Shown in pieces: positions 12,101 through 58,149 of a stretch of 64,000 bases of DNA. Numbering within the stretch: position 1 is the stretch's first letter; every line of letters begins with the position of its first letter. Under the pieces are notes generated by a model. The model was not told where the DNA came from. It did no database searches and was given only the letters and a program-made list of their open reading frames with translations. A program made the position numbers and the translations under genes. The DNA comes from Polychytrium aggregatum (lineage: Eukaryota > Chytridiomycota > Chytridiomycetes > Polychytriales). The stretch is from assembly GCF_025602895.1 (NCBI RefSeq), contig NW_026516358.1:1-64000 (forward strand), given 5' to 3'.

Positions 12101-15100
12101 CTTGAATCTTTTGCTGGTAGCTAAATAAACAAGGCGCTGTGGTATGAGCTGAACGTGCTCTCACCTCGGATTCCACTGCGGCCATGTCAGGGTGCCGGCA
12201 CTGAGGCGGGTTTGCTCCACAATCGGGGTCACTTCACCCAAGTTTCTCGACCAGCGATTGTGAATCGGTACGACACTCATGGCCTGTCACGCCGCATAAC
12301 TCTGCACATGTGCGACACTTGGCGTTGCTACCCCAGATATCACCAGTCGGCATCCCATCAAATGCGGCACCAAATGCAGCACCAAAGGACATTGGGCACA
12401 AGGACTGCTTGCTCCCAACCCAGCCTCCATTCGGCCGTCAAGTACATTGATTTGTTTGGCTCACCACTTACCGATGGAGCATGTAGCTCGTGCATGGGTC
12501 CATCGAGCCCGACTGGTGGAGCAGCAGCACCCCGCGCGGCGAGCCCGCAAAGTTGAGCAGATTGTCGAGCGATATGGTTAGCCAGTCCCGACGGCTGTGG
12601 CTTTTGTTGATGGAGTCAACTCGGGCACTATCATCGTGAACGAACATGTCCTGGTTCTCGGCGGCAAGGGTTCGATGGAGTCCATAGCGCTCGATCCAGA
12701 GTAGCCCCTCGCAAGTTCGATACAGCTGCCGGAGAAGGAAGATATAGGCCCCGAGGAGACGCAGGGGGATCGGCGAGAACGATCGGATCTCGCCTTTCAG
12801 CCCAAGTTGGACAAAATCCGCCACTGTCGGGATGATGCTTCGCACGGATGCGGATCCGTGGCATGTGTGCGACGGCGAATGTTCCTGCGCGACCGTATAC
12901 ACATAGTCCGGCCTGGATAGTGTTCCTCTCAGCAGAAGATGGCGTCCGAGGTCTGTCGCGGCAATGCTTGAAAGGTTCTCGGATATGTGAAACAAAACCA
13001 GCTGCCGATCGTGGCTGTCCTTTGGGGAGAGATCTTGGTGCTTTCTCTTACTTTCACCGAGAATGAATTTGATCGGCGCCACCAAATCCTCCAATGTATG
13101 TTCCTGGGGGGCAACGACGGAGACAAAACCAAGTCGGAGACATGCGTCAGCAAGGAGTGGTGGCGACAGCTAGAACCAAGCCCATCCGAGGTCAGCGCAG
13201 AGCAAGGCAAAGGTCAGTTGGTGCACAAACCTTGTGGAGATGGCTTTTGCATAGCGCACGGCAGGAAAACAGGCTGTTCAGTATGCCACACACGAATTTC
13301 GACAGGTTCAAAGGGGAAACTGTGTGGTATCGATCGGCTTGGTGCTGATTGTGCATGCTCTCGATCAGATCCGAGGCGACAGACAAATCAATGCTCGGGC
13401 AATAGCACATAAGGCGGACCAGTGTCCGAAGGAAGACTTGAAGGCCAATTTGTACGATTGGGGATGTGTCGCCTTCTGTACAGCGAGCGGTGCAACAGAT
13501 TGACAAAGTCATCGATGCACATGTCCACGGCATGGGAGCAAGTCAGTAGAGCGACGAATCTGCGGTCAGCACCGAGCTGCCCATGCAGCGTCGCTTGGGA
13601 TAGTCTCCAGTTTATCTCTCACCGAAGAGCGAGTCCAGCACCGAGTTCTTGGCAAGTGTCTTCTTGACGTATTTGAACGGAAAGCTCTGGCGTCCACTGA
13701 AGCATTGCGCCAATTTGGCGAGCATCACCGTCGAGTGAAGGAAGGCCAGGTAGTTCCAGTCGTCTCTGAACAGTGTTTTGCCGTTTCCGTCGCTCTCTTC
13801 GTTGGCCTCGACGTCCATCACTAAAACATCCTCCGCTTGAGTGGCCGCCTTTATCATTTCGATCGGCAGAAATTGCTGGATGGTGAGGGTTCCAGCATAG
13901 TCAAAAAAGATCCGCCCCACCACGCTGCTCGCAAAGTTCTCCTGGATCAGCACCGAGCTCGTCGCAGTCTTGCCAAACTGAGACGCCATCCATTTCTCGA
14001 ACCATGCAGCTTTGGGATCGATCAAAGCAAGGTAGTGGATGGCGTGTATCGATCCCGACGCCGGCAGGAGCTTTGTTGCTCCAGCGCCCGGCATTGCTGG
14101 GATGCTCGATGACGAAGCAACGCCATTGGACCCCACGGCGGCTGTGTCGCCGATGCCGGCTTTGAGCAGGCGGACCGTGGCGCAGATGACCTCGGTAAGC
14201 AGACTTTCCGGAAATCGGTTCCAGCACGATGGTAGCTCGTGCTGGAACTGGTTGAGCAGACGAAACTGCGATAAACAAACAGTCCAAGAGAAGGGTGTTG
14301 AGTTAATATCCCGACGATGCCGGTGTCTCGTGGCTGTTGCTCTGGTGCAGTTGTTTGTAATCAACTGTCCAAGGCACACAGTTGGATATTTTCCATAACA
14401 TGCCATTAGCGGATCTGATGTTGGTGCTGGTTTTGCATCAGGCGCAACGCTGTGGGTCGGCACATTCAGAACATCCGCCGCACCTCCCGTGTGGCGGTGA
14501 TGCCAGGACCGTACCTTTCGGAGCAGCAAATCATTTTTTGGATCGACGAGATCAAACCCATTGGATAACTTGGGTGTGTGGCCGCTTTCAATAAGTTGCG
14601 TCAGATGGTTGATAAGACTGACAAAGACCTCTCCTGTCATGGGCGGTGGTGCGGCTTTGAACGCTCTGGCGTATATCCGAAGGCCGTGCATTGCAATCCT
14701 GGAGTTGGTGTAAGCCCGCCGCAAGGTACAGGGAAATCCGAAATTCGTTAGAACAATGTCCATCAAGAACATGTCGCTTGAATCAGGAACGAGCGACTCG
14801 TGCATTTTCCGCCAGCCGCCCAGGCGAAACCACCACTGCTTGTGAGTTTGTACGAACCTCGGATCTGCATCTCCAATTGACGCCTCCAGTGCTGGTCGGG
14901 AGTCGTTCCACAACTCTCCCGATAATAGATCGACCGATGAGAACGAGGCCAGTTTCTAGAGAACCATTGGGTATCAACAAGCCGAGCGTCAATCAGGTCG
15001 CCGTTCCGAAGTCATATTCATGGACATCTCGTTGGTGGCGACCCCGCCAGCTGCCTCGCCTATCGGAATGACTATGGCCAGGAACGAGCATACCTGAATG

Positions 15101-32779: not shown

Positions 32780-33211
32780 CAAGCTTGGGTAGATGCTGCT
32801 GCCTCTGCCGCAACGGCCCCTCTTTGGTTCTGGCTCTGGTTCTGGTTCTGGCTCTGGCTCTGGCTTCTGAACACGCACACATCTACCCTGTGATCCTGTG
32901 TGCCCGAGAGCATTCTCGAGGTCCAGACGCTTTACACCCCCGGGTATCAGGCCCATGCATCGCACCCGTGTCCCAGTCCTGAATCGTCGTGGCAACACGA
33001 ATGTAAGCACGATCCTGAGTGCGAGTTGATCATCGCTTACGAGTATCGACCGCATATGTTGACAACGGTACTTCATGAAACGATGCGATACACACAAAGG
33101 CCAGCCACAATCCCACAGGCCTCGGCTGCGCGACCAGCAGGGAAGTTGGGTTGGCAACCTTATCGCTGCATAGACTTTCCCTTGGCGAGTGATGGTGCCG
33201 TGTTGTGCGAA
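32777..33211 (-). repeat. 435-bp repeat R, copy 1 (inverted)
   Basis: Reverse complement of 42609-43043. The lengths are identical and only a couple of base differences were seen (for example cccaagctt versus ctccagctt near one end). It contains an internal hexamer array (agccag/aaccag) that would encode Pro-Glu repeats. One end abuts the right terminus of Fanzor relic 1. A 140-codon frame is shared by both copies, but at this identity that does not show coding function. Confidence 0.92.
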
Positions 33212-42608: not shown

Positions 42609-43043
42609 TTCGCACAACACGGCACCATCACTCGCCAAGGGAAAGTCTATGCAGCGATAAGGTTGCCAACCCAACTTCCCTGCTGGTCGCGCAGCCGAGG
42701 CCTGTGGGATTGTGGCTGGCCTTTGTGTGTATCGCATCGTTTCATGAAGTACCGTTGTCAACATATGCGGTCGATACTCGTAAGCGATGATCAACTCGCA
42801 CTCAGGATCGTGCTTACATTCGTGTTGCCACGACGATTCAGGACTGGGACACGGGTGCGATGCATGGGCCTGATACCCGGGGGTGTAAAGCGTCTGGACC
42901 TCGAGAATGCTCTCGGGCACACAGGATCACAGGGTAGATGTGTGCGTGTTCAGAAGCCAGAGCCAGAGCCAGAACCAGAACCAGAGCCAGAACCAAAGAG
43001 GGGCCGTTGCGGCAGAGGCAGCAGCATCTACTCCAGCTTGGGA
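42609..43043 (+). repeat. 435-bp repeat R, copy 2
   Basis: Same unit as 32777-33211 in the opposite orientation. It begins 63 bases after the stop of the FAM13-like gene and ends about 65 bases before the left terminus of the Fanzor transposon. The two copies flank 9.4 kb holding the coiled-coil and FAM13-like genes. The repeat has no terminal inverted repeat of its own that I can see. Confidence 0.92.
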
Positions 43044-43107
43044 TGATTACGGTTATAACAAGCGAGCCAACCCTCCCACAGCACGTCCGGATTACAGGCA
43101 ATCCAAT

Positions 43108-43120
43108 AAAAAACGGGACA
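43108..43120 (+). repeat. Left terminal inverted repeat
   Basis: The thirteen bases aaaaaacgggaca recur as an exact reverse complement at 46808-46820. It lies 58 bases upstream of the transposase ATG. Confidence 0.75.
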
Positions 43121-43178
43121 CCCGGATTTTTGACCATTCATCGAATATTTTGTTACCCAAAACCATCGCGCGCTGGCC

Positions 43179-44111
43179 ATGACCATTCGCCACACATCCG
43201 ACTTTCGCACCGCCGCATTGCGATGCTACGCCCTCATCCATAGCCTGCGTAAGGTCGCCACCATATTCAGTGTATCCAAGAGCACCATCCATCGATGGCA
43301 CCGAGGATGCAAGCTGGATGACCCATCCCGGGTCCCAGCTCGCAGATCCACTTTCTTCGAGCAGGCATGTCCAGTCATTCGCACCCTGATTGAACAGGAC
43401 CCGTTCCAGACTGGTCCTGTGTTGCGATGCAAGCTCGAGTCCATCCTCCAGAGGAAAGTATCACTCTCACTCTGCCACACTGCCATCCACCGAGCAGGTC
43501 TCTCACACAAGAGGGCAACACACCTCTACAAGTCCAAGCGACTGGATGAGCGAGTGGCACAGTTCAGGGACCAGGCCCGCTCCATTGACCCACGACGATT
43601 CGTTTTTGTCGACGAGACAGGGATCAGGAGATCCATTTTCCCTCTTTACGGATACTCACCGAAGGGTGCTCCGCTTCGCCAGCGCAATCACATGAAGCAC
43701 AAGTCTGTCTCGGCTGCATTTGCCATCAACCACTCTGGTGTGCTGCATCGCATGTACATCCCCACATCATTCAAGACACACTCGATGGTCGAGTTCTTTG
43801 AGCGAGCGAGCTTCCCAGACGACTCTGTGATTGTGATGGACAATGTCAGCATGCACAAGACAATGCCTGTCCTGGACTGCATCGAGCGCCGAGGATGGTC
43901 AGTGATCTTCACCCCACCTGCCTCGCCCGACTTCAATCCCATCGAGAACTTCTTTGGGATTGTGAAGCATCAGTACAGGAAGGCAGCAGCGCTGAACGCC
44001 TCCGAGGGGTTCAAGATCGGGATGGTGACCCTGTTTGAGTCTGCCGTTCGGAGGGTGCTTCCAGATGTCTTCCCACGGCTGATTGAGCGAGCGATGCGCT
44101 TCTGGGGTTGA
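43179..44111 (+). CDS. DD34E transposase (IS630/Tc1-mariner superfamily)
   Basis: Single-exon, apparently intact, 310 residues, the normal size for this superfamily. The N-terminal helix-turn-helix covers about residues 5-45 (TAALRCYALIHSLRKVATIF, then SKSTIHRWHRG). A second DNA-binding helix region follows. The catalytic triad is present: first Asp in FVFVDETGIRRS, second Asp in VIVMDNVSMHK, and Glu in SPDFNPIENFFG, with exactly 34 residues between the second Asp and the Glu. The reaction is cut-and-paste transposition at TA. It lies first in the element, 252 bases ahead of the Fanzor start. With all three catalytic residues and no break, it could still be active. Confidence 0.93.
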   Translation: MTIRHTSDFRTAALRCYALIHSLRKVATIFSVSKSTIHRWHRGCKLDDPSRVPARRSTFFEQACPVIRTLIEQDPFQTGPVLRCKLESILQRKVSLSLCHTAIHRAGLSHKRATHLYKSKRLDERVAQFRDQARSIDPRRFVFVDETGIRRSIFPLYGYSPKGAPLRQRNHMKHKSVSAAFAINHSGVLHRMYIPTSFKTHSMVEFFERASFPDDSVIVMDNVSMHKTMPVLDCIERRGWSVIFTPPASPDFNPIENFFGIVKHQYRKAAALNASEGFKIGMVTLFESAVRRVLPDVFPRLIERAMRFWG

Positions 44112-44228
44112 GTTCCCTCCAATCAAGCCGCCGTTCTCACGTTCACATCCCTGGCTTGAGCCTCTCGGCGATTTTTGAACAGGGTCACTTCCCCAACCAG
44201 CCCGCAAAGACGGGCTCCTGCTCTCGGG

Positions 44229-44234
44229 TATAAA
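44229..44234 (+). promoter_or_regulatory. Candidate TATA box of the Fanzor gene
   Basis: TATAAA in the 252-base gap between the transposase stop and the Fanzor ATG, 130 bases before that ATG. Its place suggests the Fanzor gene has its own promoter rather than reading through from the transposase. Confidence 0.5.
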
Positions 44235-44363
44235 TGCCACACCTTCGTCCTGCTGCTTTCTTCCCTCATCTCGCCTTGATCTGATCATCGCGCTATTGTA
44301 CGATAAAAAAAAGTCTCTGCTCTGACCAGTACCACTGGCAGGCATCCAGCATCCTCTGCCCCC

Positions 44364-46736
44364 ATGCCTCCGAAGCGCAAGGGTACCGGTGATGGCCAGC
44401 CTCGGCCACCCAGGCCCAAGAAAGCCAAGTCACAGTCGGAGCCTGTCTCTGGTTCGTATTCTGATCCCACGCATGCTTGTTTCTCTGTTGCTCCGTCGCT
44501 CACCACCACTGCTTCTGCAGATCCAATGGATGTCGATCCCACCGAGCCTGGTCCATCTACTTCCTCGAGTACCGGCAAGCGATGTCGCCAGTGCGATGGC
44601 ACCGATCACGAACGCTGCAACACCAGCAAGTGTCCCAAATACCGGCCCCTCAAGAGCTCTGTCGTCCCACTCGTGGATGGAAGGTCATCCGCCCCTCAGT
44701 TCAGCTGCTTCAAGCAGACGATGGATAGCTGTTGTCTCAATCCCGCTCTCCGCGACAAGATCCAGGCCACCGTCGAGGCCATGACCCAGATCCAGTTCGA
44801 GGCATCCAGGCTGCTCAACCTGCATATCCTCCGGTGCATCGAGCAGGATCTTCCCGTCCCCGTCATCTCCAAGTCCACCCCTGCTTTCATCCGCCAATGC
44901 TTCACGATTGTCCAGGCCGATGCCCTCTCCCCGACCGGGGACAACGAGAAATACAACGAGCATCTGGTCGCTTCCTTTCGCGACTACCAGACCACTCGGC
45001 ACGCAGACCTGCCTCCGGCCCCTCGTCTGCCTGATGGTGCTCACAGTCAGCTTCTCACACTGGCTGTCAACGCCTATGCCACCAACTGCACCACCCACCT
45101 CGACCTGGCCTACTGGCGACTCCTTCGCCGCTTCTGCGCTGCCGTCTTCCCTGCCAACAAGCACAAGCACGAAGCCATCGAGGCCTGTCTCGAGCTCTTC
45201 GAGAAACCAGGGCAGACTCCACCCAAGGCCGATCTCGAGTTCCTCTATCCAGACTTTGGCCACGTCCTGGACGAGTTTCGGTACAGCAGCGACCAGGACC
45301 GCTTCCGGGCCCTCCATCGCCTCTCACACCATGTGGGAATCCTCGCCCGGGACAAGATGGTCGACAATGTCCACAAGTGGATCGACTGTGACATGCCCGC
45401 CCTCCGAGTCACCGAGCTGCAGCGCCAGGCCAAGCTGGACGAGCTCACTACCCAAGGCATTCCCTCCGACGACAAGCGATTCACCACGGCCAAGTCTGAG
45501 CTCGGCACCACCAAGGCCAAGATCAACAAGCTGGCATCCAGGATCAACTGGGCACTCAAGCAGCTCACTCTTGACACTCCTCCGGCCGTGTGCACGATGG
45601 TCCCTCTGTGCACAGCCAAGGCCAAGTATGTCAAGATCGACACCGTCACTCTTTGGCAACTCCTGGGTCCAAAGAAGCGCCTTGGACTCACCAGGGACAA
45701 GCTCAAGGAAGAAGGTGATGACGGTGTCAACAACCAGGATCGTCTCTGGCGCAGTTGCTTCAAGCTGCGTAGTTCCCTCTTCCAAGAGCGGGACGTGAAC
45801 AAGAAACTGTTCAACTACGAGATCAGTACCGATGGAATTGGATGCACCATCGGTCTCGTCAAGTTTCTGCCTCGAACCGATCACACCGAGACCATCGAGC
45901 CTCCTCCGACTGCCGAGCAGCGTATCCAGACCCACATCGGCGACCCAGACCCCAACAGGACCACTTGGATTGGCATCGATCCTGGAGTCGGCTCCATCTT
46001 CACGGCGGTCATCCAAGCACCGAGCCACCAAGACGAGGTGGTCTCGTTCTCCAATGGTCACTATCAGCAAATGTGTGGCCATACGTCCAATACTGAGTGG
46101 CACAACACCATGAAGTATCGACTCAGCATCGAGACCTAGATGTCGACCACCCCCTCGCCCAAGGTGTCGTCCTCGGAGGCCTTCAAGATCCATCTCGCCC
46201 ATGTCCTGCGACCGGAGCTGCGAGTGCAGCTCGACTTCCACCTTGGCAAGAAGGCCCGTCACCATCGCTTCACGGGCCACAGGAGACGCCAAGTGGCCGT
46301 CGACAGGATGTGTAAGTCGGTCCTGAAGCACGCCCCGATACGGACCGATGTGGTGATCGCCTTTGGCAATGCGTCATGGCGTCAAGGCAAGGGCTATGCA
46401 TCCAGCCCTCGGAGGCAGCGGTTTGCTCGGTACTTTGAGCAATTCGAGCACCACCGACGCCGTCCCAATCACCATCATGGAAGCGTCAAGGTGGCCTCGA
46501 CGAACGAGTTCAACACCTCGCAAGTGTGCTCCAAGTGCCTGGAGCCAGTTCGGTTGGAAGGACTCGATGCGCCCAGTGTTGCGAATTCCCACTTTGTCAG
46601 GAGCTGCAAGAATCCCAGCTGCCGGACAGTGTGGAATCGCGACGTCAATGCGGCGCGCAACATGATCACAGTATGCAGGTCGATTGTGGAGACCGGAGAG
46701 CGACCGGTGGTCTTCACTCGGAGGCTGCCAAAGTGA
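44364..46736 (+). CDS. Fanzor RNA-guided nuclease, split by one in-frame TAG
   Basis: Eukaryotic TnpB homolog. The frame is open from 44364 except for TAG at 46137-46139; ATG follows at once in the same frame, so it would be 790 codons counting the stop. Features: basic N terminus (residues 2-22, NLS-like), a zinc-knuckle-like C74-x2-C77-x4-H82-x2-C85-x4-C90, a long helical domain, RuvC-I Asp539 in WIGIDPGVGSIFTA, SFSNGHYQQMCG, then after the stop PSPKVSSSEAF, RRRQVAVDRMCK, VVIAFGNASW, the EFNTSQVCSKC...SCKNPSC zinc finger and RuvC-III Asp760 in WNRDVNAARNM. The usual RuvC-II Glu position holds no Glu in FGNASW; Glu715 in TNEFNTS may serve instead, as reported for Fanzors. It is probably inactivated by a nonsense mutation, or it needs readthrough. 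Confidence 0.92.
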
Positions 46737-46820
46737 TCTGTTTTATTTCTTGTGGCTTTGCTTGACGCAAGCACAGCACATACTACTGTTCATGGAAACG
46801 GCTATATTGTCCCGTTTTTT
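46737..46820 (+). ncRNA. Candidate guide-RNA (omega/fRNA) scaffold 3' of Fanzor
   Basis: TnpB and Fanzor guide RNAs normally come from the 3' end of the nuclease gene through to the element's right end. Here that interval is 84 bases and includes a hairpin at 46759-46773: tgcttg, loop acg, caagca, a perfect 6-bp stem. The right terminal repeat follows. The guide would then be read from flanking host DNA past 46820. This rests on position and the hairpin only. Confidence 0.45.
46808..46820 (-). repeat. Right terminal inverted repeat
   Basis: Exact reverse complement of 43108-43120. The surrounding bases (atgga-ac, tata, gtcccgttt, ctgaa) are also kept at the end of the relic near 58.54 kb, which supports this as the true right end. 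Confidence 0.75.
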
Positions 46821-47017
46821 TCTGAATAAAGTGTAAGCTGCAGTTTGATACGCATTAGGCAAATTCTTGGGGATTGTTTGCAAGTGGCTCGGGGGCGACC
46901 ATCGGCTCATGTGGTGATGTCGCTTTTGTCCCATATCCCAAGGCCTCTCGGGTGCTCAGAGCACCTCCGAAGCGCCGAAATGAGACAGTGGACGCCGGGA
47001 ATCGGTAGCGTGCAGTA

Positions 47018-48415: not shown

Positions 48416-58149
<9,734 letters not shown>

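Follow-up and report, generated by a model that had tools for sequence, protein, structure and literature searches.

Tc1/mariner elements that carry a Fanzor1 protein have been known since 2013 (Bao & Jurka 2013, PMC3627910). In that report, PGv-1 and PUl-1 combine a Mariner-like transposase with Fanzor1, and the termini of PGv-1 and its relatives are inverted repeats bordered by TA duplications. The same combination is found in the element described here, a 3,739-bp Tc1/mariner (DD34E) copy at 43095-46833 of the first 64,000 nucleotides of contig NW_026516358.1 of Polychytrium aggregatum (the window), flanked by TA at 43093-43094 and 46834-46835. Whereas PGv-1 is single-copy and has an additional gene for a GIY-YIG nuclease (PMC3627910), the present family has two genes, more than 100 exact right ends and derivatives of about 307 bp. 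As the association of Tc1/mariner with Fanzor1 is itself known, the new part lies in the comparison of copies, namely a T-TA motif confined to the left side, left joints derived from the target, and alleles with mosaic interiors; no report of the first two was found for PGv-1 or PUl-1 in the available text of PMC3627910. We infer that the Fanzor cuts DNA and that the element homes, and assign a probability of roughly 60% to the reading that a Tc1/mariner cut-and-paste transposon took up a Fanzor1 and homes to its own sites by RNA-guided cutting and repair copying.

The Fanzor1 element SPu-1 of Spizellomyces punctatus has putative TA duplications (PMC3627910), and the target-adjacent motif (TAM) of SpuFz1 is CATA (PMC10432273). 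If SPu-1 is assumed to be the SpuFz1 element, these data fit a rule in which flank bases plus the TA duplication form the TAM, and this TAM ends in TA, as does the TTA proposed here. SPu-1 differs in having one single open reading frame, the Fanzor (PMC3627910), and in the bases that precede TA. The Fanzor1 Helitrons CRe-1, CRe-2 and CRe-3 of Chlamydomonas show almost all 3' ends intact, 5' truncation, and duplications of 7-19 bp directly after TTTT; duplications were seen in 1 of 200 copies of the Fanzor-less Helitron-1N1_CRe, and the authors leave undecided whether Fanzor causes the Helitron duplications (PMC3627910). Intact 3' ends, a variable 5' end and duplications after a fixed motif, T-rich in Chlamydomonas, are shared with the present family; unlike it, the CRe elements are Helitrons with a one-ended rolling-circle explanation, and some of their duplications measure 44-443 bp.

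In bacteria, TnpB of IS200/IS605 elements is a retention and gene-drive device in plasmids (PMC11870625). There, as proposed here, an RNA-guided nuclease keeps a record of where the element was inserted and cuts copies that lack it. Those elements are bacterial and use the single-strand transposase TnpA, whereas the present one is eukaryotic, has a double-strand DDE transposase, and its cutting is postulated from the copies. A proliferative advantage of Fanzor for its transposons has been inferred only, from copy numbers (PMC10711439), and in the available text of open-licence PubMed Central papers no report of natural Fanzor homing or of junctions like those below was found.

The preliminary description of this locus had proposed a complete DD34E transposon, bounded by perfect 13-bp inverted termini and carrying a Fanzor nuclease. 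That perfect repeat is real (43108-43120 and 46808-46820) but is the inner half of a longer one. Multi-copy comparison set the ends at 43095 and 46833, 13 bp further out on either side, and gave an imperfect terminal inverted repeat of 26 bp in which 19 positions match. The revised ends still enclose both the transposase and the Fanzor gene, and in four other copies read end to end they likewise flank the two genes, although one or the other is sometimes broken. The composite was thus correctly described, but the window copy is not complete, as its Fanzor frame is interrupted. TA was present on both sides in 22 of 23 distinct sites, as expected of Tc1/mariner. Exact ends with a duplication of TA only, the standard arrangement, were seen in 18 of these sites; in the other five the first bases of the left end, which normally reads CAGGC, were altered and the duplication was longer.

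Copies were compared across the assembly (64.7 Mb in 418 contigs, to which the C-numbers below refer). A 1.26-kb left-end query returned 868 candidates, the best 40 of which were scored and were all 97-100% identical; a right-end query returned 1100, and the best 40 were 98-100% identical over nearly the whole query, with two further weak secondary matches. Exact patterns placed right ends at 158 positions and left ends at 114; by construction, each pattern misses about one quarter of flanks. Because similarity was the basis for selecting left and right loci, diversity values are biased downward in the query regions. Many insertion sites occurred on two contigs with nearly the same flanks, so the assembly behaves as two haplotypes. 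A short derivative, 307-308 bp in the two copies measured, joins 97 bp of the left end to 210-211 bp of the right end. Its junction was found at 51 places (45 exact, 6 with one mismatch), and it keeps the entire candidate guide-RNA hairpin.

In many copies, 1-8 bases of the left end are replaced by target sequence. A non-C first base in register was found at 36 places genome-wide; the right end gave no such place when searched with the mirror-image pattern, a change in its last base before TA. Both flanks were obtained for 19 sites, and 18 of them share bases beyond TA with their own right flank. At the 17 of the 19 sites that are in register, 27 of 29 altered left bases equal the right flank. 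Examples, given as left/right junctions, are TATAGTCAATCC / TATAGTCAAT, TATGGTC / TATGGTCCG, TAAGAGCGATCC / TAAGAGCACC, TACAGTAGATCC / TACAGTAGATCG and TACTGCGGTGATCC / TACTGCGGTGTGG. The shared bases beyond TA summed to 85, compared with a mean of 7.2 under random pairing (0 of 20,000 draws as high). Microhomology following the last altered base averaged 2.31 (16 sites) compared with 0.47 (0 of 20,000 resamples as high). Altered joints were present on two contigs at C363/C68, C102/C124, C156/C223 and C157/C416.

Likely alleles with the same letters were counted once in this test (C366, C362, C401:172566, C79:131746, C318, C407, C334:248045 and C334:253129). It left out C124:162029, whose right end has no TA after it and whose likely allele is C401:129388; altered left ends for which the right end was not found (C24:452960, two on C52, C112:954784, C168:155993, C179:131107 and C13:16354); and also C68:491129 and C146:116640.

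Target preference was likewise confined to one side. The base before the left TA was T in 99 of 100 listed copies, or 76 of 77 distinct flanks, whereas among 83 distinct right flanks the base after TA was A in 14, C in 27, G in 26 and T in 16; in two of these flanks TG stands in place of TA. As the right side is free in its next base, the T-TA preference is not palindromic; a palindromic preference of the transposase would give T-TA-A. Judged from these flanks, TTA is the putative TAM. At an occupied site, G rather than T precedes the right TA, so that the element would escape cutting under its own guide. The earlier expectation of deriving both the guide RNA and the target preference from this element was borne out in part, in that copy comparison yielded the left TTA and a candidate guide-RNA hairpin at the right end.

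Element interiors, as assembled, were mosaic between haplotypes. The flanks of six of seven haplotype pairs showed 0-3 differences per 1,327-1,400 aligned bp, whereas the elements of those pairs showed 1, 11, 29, 34, 58 and 62 differences per ~2,700. The seventh pair, the window's own site and its partner on C79, had 89 element differences; its flanks had 2 in the nearest 400 bp and aligned poorly further out (108/895, 49 gaps). Non-allelic copies differed at a median of 98 positions (231 pairs; lowest 29, next 72). Over the seven pairs, 228 of 291 differences were variants present in other copies too. Mosaic pairs include C363/C68, C134/C113 and C376/C101. The C363/C68 elements share ~1.1 kb of identical sequence before they begin to differ, and two neighbouring non-allelic copies on C8 are identical over the first ~2.4 kb and different thereafter. 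A full-length element on one haplotype faces the ~307-bp form on the other at C190/C172, which have a common six-T variant at the right end, and at C301/C364; C223/C156 looks like a third such pair, judged only by a common altered left end and ten letters of right flank. Unless these differences are assembly errors, copying from other elements seems to rewrite element interiors more quickly than mutation alters the flanks.

Under the homing reading, the transposase would excise the element and insert it at TA. RNA from the right end, consisting of a hairpin scaffold and the first right-flank bases, would guide Fanzor to the same site when that site is empty and has TTA on the left, and the Fanzor cut, in the empty allele or the resealed donor site, would fall some bases rightward of TTA. 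With the occupied allele or the sister as repair template, the element would then be copied back in. Because the break would fall on the right-hand side of the insertion point, a short tail of target sequence, unmatched in the occupied allele, would remain on the left broken end, and the flank would hold this tail in register opposite the first bases of the element. Incomplete trimming that stops at a chance match, together with microhomology priming, would replace the first left-end bases with target bases. The right broken end would match the flank fully, so that the right junction would be copied exactly. Switching of the new strand to other copies during repair may produce the scrambled interiors and the exchange of full-length and ~307-bp forms at one site. 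If the empty allele is cut at a point rightward of where the element inserts, the junction features are accounted for together. Recognising TTA and cutting downstream of it under guidance from the right flank is the behaviour to be expected of a Fanzor encoded by this element. Whether the left joints are a genomic trace of RNA-guided homing in a eukaryote, with a Fanzor reprogrammed by the flank driving the element in and the short derivatives riding along, we consider an evenly balanced question.

The junctions might instead be the work of the transposase only. It would prefer TTA in one orientation and treat the left end loosely, trimming the end and lengthening the duplication equally, with Fanzor passive or acting elsewhere. 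The two ends could behave differently, since their terminal repeats agree at 19 of 26 positions, and the transposase frame is open and less diverse across copies at codon positions 1 and 2 (0.013 and 0.014) than at position 3 (0.039). However, microhomology at the joints (2.31 compared with 0.47) does not follow from this explanation, and neither does the lack of mirror-image changes at right ends (0 places compared with 36 on the left). The Fanzor also shows the codon-position signature of selection (0.070 at third positions against 0.033 and 0.025), and the third-position excess in both genes is as expected if both proteins were under selection while copies spread. To our knowledge, the described target preferences of Tc1/mariner elements are palindromic, which counts further against it. 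We therefore regard action of the transposase only as unlikely.

One-ended insertion with template switching, modelled on target-primed or break-induced replication, would involve no RNA-guided cut. The right end would be joined first, and the polymerase would switch from target to element at microhomology, which accounts for the exact right junction, the variable left end and the microhomology itself; some left ends are moreover off register. This model gives no reason for the left T-TA or for the register kept in most altered ends (5 of 7 where register was not imposed). Nor was any 5'-truncated copy found within ~2 kb among 30 right-end loci, the window's included, these loci having been chosen by similarity. 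We consider it improbable. That this is an ordinary Tc1/mariner element with Fanzor1 of the published kind (PMC3627910), whose ends have drifted and whose haplotype differences are artefacts of a fragmented assembly (418 contigs) of very similar copies, is hardly credible, as drift has no means of bringing left-end bases into agreement with the right flank (27 of 29) and several altered joints recur on the two contigs of the four pairs named above.

A number of observations weigh against homing. Mosaic interiors by themselves could be explained by transposase-induced gap repair or by assembly error among repeats that are ~97% identical. The C400/C386 left end does not match its own right flank, and C9 has an extra altered base without a match. 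Register was imposed by the search pattern, the 5 of 7 in-register ends cited above being those checked without it, and left ends with one extra base occur at 12 places. The C8/C135 site among these was checked and fits its flank, as does the separate off-register site C135/C318; the right ends of the other 10 were not found at the places looked at. Right ends also vary; 3 of 30 differ at the fifth base, counted inward, and C417 differs at two positions, and the changed right-end bases of L046, L068 and C417 do not, by eye, equal the known left flank. Six places genome-wide combine a non-T base before TA with an exact left end, although one of them, C119, has an allele with T. Right flanks start with TACA in 15 of 83 distinct cases, compared with about 1 in 16 expected, which the model does not clearly predict, and a few copies without the TA duplication do not fit it. 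RNA folds of 76-199 nt at the right end give a weak hairpin signal (z -1.5 to -2.1). Finally, when 14 joined empty sites were searched, a partner place was found for 10 and none read through the join (best 40 of 381 candidates scored), so that the statement "the empty site reads TTA" derives from the flanks. Missing empty alleles are not evidence of drive either: in six of seven pairs the haplotypes diverge by only ~0-0.2% in the flanks, so the insertions probably predate the haplotype split.

Some further features of the junctions were recorded. The TACA of right flanks resembles the element's own left end after TA. At C376/C101 (L033, L034, L054), A rather than T precedes the left TA, TG rather than TA follows the right end, and there is no TA duplication. 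The one-extra-base left ends lacking a right end are on C12, C24:965661, C112:538879, C126, C62, C375:89115, C218, C404, C372:219204 and C112:281170, and may be truncated copies or another subfamily. At C124:158400-158640 (L102), the right end is followed by CAGGCAATAC, which resembles the element's own left end, and not by TA. The joined empty-site query of the C399 insertion matches at 87% at the place of that copy's right end (L027, C399:55126-55242), and the C399 left flank reads as if it were an old relative of the element's right end.

Both genes of the window copy were examined for published features of their families (Table 1). The transposase has the three DDE residues and the 34-residue spacing first attributed to it, with exactly 34 residues from D221 to E256 as in DD34E elements of Tc1/mariner. 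The RuvC motifs, zinc finger and N-terminal zinc knuckle (CX2C...C) attributed to the Fanzor are likewise all present, but the frame (44364-46736) is broken in the window copy by the TAG, which precedes two of the three catalytic residues (E715 at 46506 and D760 at 46641). Pfam PF07282 matched the C-terminal piece (E 3.9e-10), and no Pfam family matched the first 591 codons. Read past the TAG, the published Fanzor motif D-X(125,275)-[TS][TS]XX-C4 zinc finger-X(5,50)-RD (PMC3627910) is represented by D539, T718 S719, C722 C725 C748 C753 and R759 D760, and the same residues are present in a natural open-frame copy.

Table 1. Features of the window copy, in positions of the window
Feature	Position	Strand	Evidence
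TTA: conserved T plus left TA duplication, proposed TAM	43092..43094	+	T before TA across copies
Left terminal inverted repeat, 26 bp	43095..43120	+	boundary from copy comparison
Tc1/mariner (IS630-like) DD34E transposase, 310 aa, open frame	43179..44111	+	Pfam DDE_3 E 5.7e-23; D145 D221 E256
Fanzor, first part: 591 codons, then in-frame TAG (46137-46139); zinc knuckle, STDG, first RuvC aspartate D539	44364..46139	+	
Fanzor, remainder after TAG: RuvC E715 and D760, C4 zinc finger (PF07282), stop	46140..46736	+	
Candidate 3' end of guide RNA (reRNA): right terminal repeat folded with 3' untranslated sequence into a long hairpin, to T of right TA	46780..46835	+	RNA folds
Right terminal inverted repeat	46808..46833	+	boundary from copy comparison
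Right TA duplication, preceded by G, hence no TTA at the occupied right junction	46834..46835	+	
Predicted guide part: first ~20 bases of right flank	46836..46855	+	analogy with Fanzor/TnpB reRNAs (PMC10711439, PMC10432273)

The DPG motif and shifted RuvC glutamate described for Fanzors (PMC10711439) correspond here to IDPG at D539 and to NEFNTS with E715, which was called as the shifted glutamate by motif position, not structure. The TDG motif of the Fanzor1 WED domain (PMC10711439) is found as STDG (T489) and is kept in the relative P0001. Fanzor1 proteins are carried by eukaryotic transposons other than IS607, and here the same ends enclose a DDE transposase and the Fanzor in the window copy and the four others. 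Fanzor2 carriers are IS607-type elements with a serine recombinase, in place of which the neighbouring gene is the DDE transposase; this point alone is not decisive, because some Fanzor2 sit in other transposons (PMC10711439). By these published sequence tests the protein is a Fanzor, and by its TDG motif it would be of the Fanzor1 type.

Both frames are open in copies on C8 (310 and 788 aa) and C376. On C99 the Fanzor is open and the transposase frame split, and on C2 the transposase is open and the Fanzor frame split. Genome-wide, 57 of 150 scored PF07282 places lie in stop-free frames of at least 750 codons, and the genome holds more than one Fanzor family. Among 8000 scored candidates, a single database relative of the Fanzor was found, P0001, at 25% identity. 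A pattern search of viral contigs matched at 57 places but revealed no relative. A sequence search of the PDB returned no match for the N-terminal 591 aa and only weak matches for the C-terminal piece, one of them to SpuFz1 (E 0.13).

Other Fanzor-like sequences were encountered. An IS607-like Fanzor2/TnpB frame of 476 aa lies at L002 1483-2913 (minus strand) and also at C124:410594, C379:92828 and C379:97918. In L002, the one of these that was read, the N-terminus shows by eye a MerR-type helix-turn-helix and the start of a serine recombinase in one open frame. Places of equal score and frame length form inverted pairs ~5 kb apart on two contigs. Sequences 69-76% identical to the Fanzor lie close beyond the right ends of some copies (L059 2118-2309, L063 2119-2221 and C99:20696-21066) and are perhaps remains of an older related family.

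A putative RNA from the right end may be the guide RNA, with the right flank as its guide, by analogy with Fanzor1 guide RNAs, whose scaffold is predicted to take in the target duplication together with the terminal repeat (PMC10711439). Among 30 right ends, 4 of 47 paired hairpin positions vary compared with 4 of 27 unpaired positions, and no covariation was seen. Conservation of the 3' end was considered as strong evidence for a guide RNA and rejected, as the 30 loci had been picked by similarity in that very region.

In this family young copies are numerous and lie on two haplotypes, and their footprint can be read and is orientation-specific, which makes homing, TAM and guide RNA directly testable. 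The junction test is simple and can be applied to any genome with Fanzor elements. If homing is correct, its rule would extend to the Fanzor1 Helitrons of Chlamydomonas. Flank bases plus target duplication would form the TAM, variable duplications would be tails left untrimmed as far as the cut, and this would account for the 5' truncations and the duplications of 7-19 bp in those Helitrons, though not for the few much longer duplications among them.

At C14:63211-95200 (L090, L091), ~32 kb lie between the flanks where the C375 haplotype has a full element; both element ends are kept, and other DNA seems to sit inside the C14 copy. An Rfam scan of the window gave no match at gathering scores. 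Frames matching the BROMI (PF14961) and HEAT/CLASP families lie at 13612-14913 (minus strand) and 53576-56335 (plus strand) of the window and hint at a host with flagella. Similar tandem units occur at 32825-32869 and 42951-42995 (TGGTTCTGGCTC / CAGAACCAGAGC), in opposite orientation and ~10 kb apart, the second ~100 bp to the left of the element.

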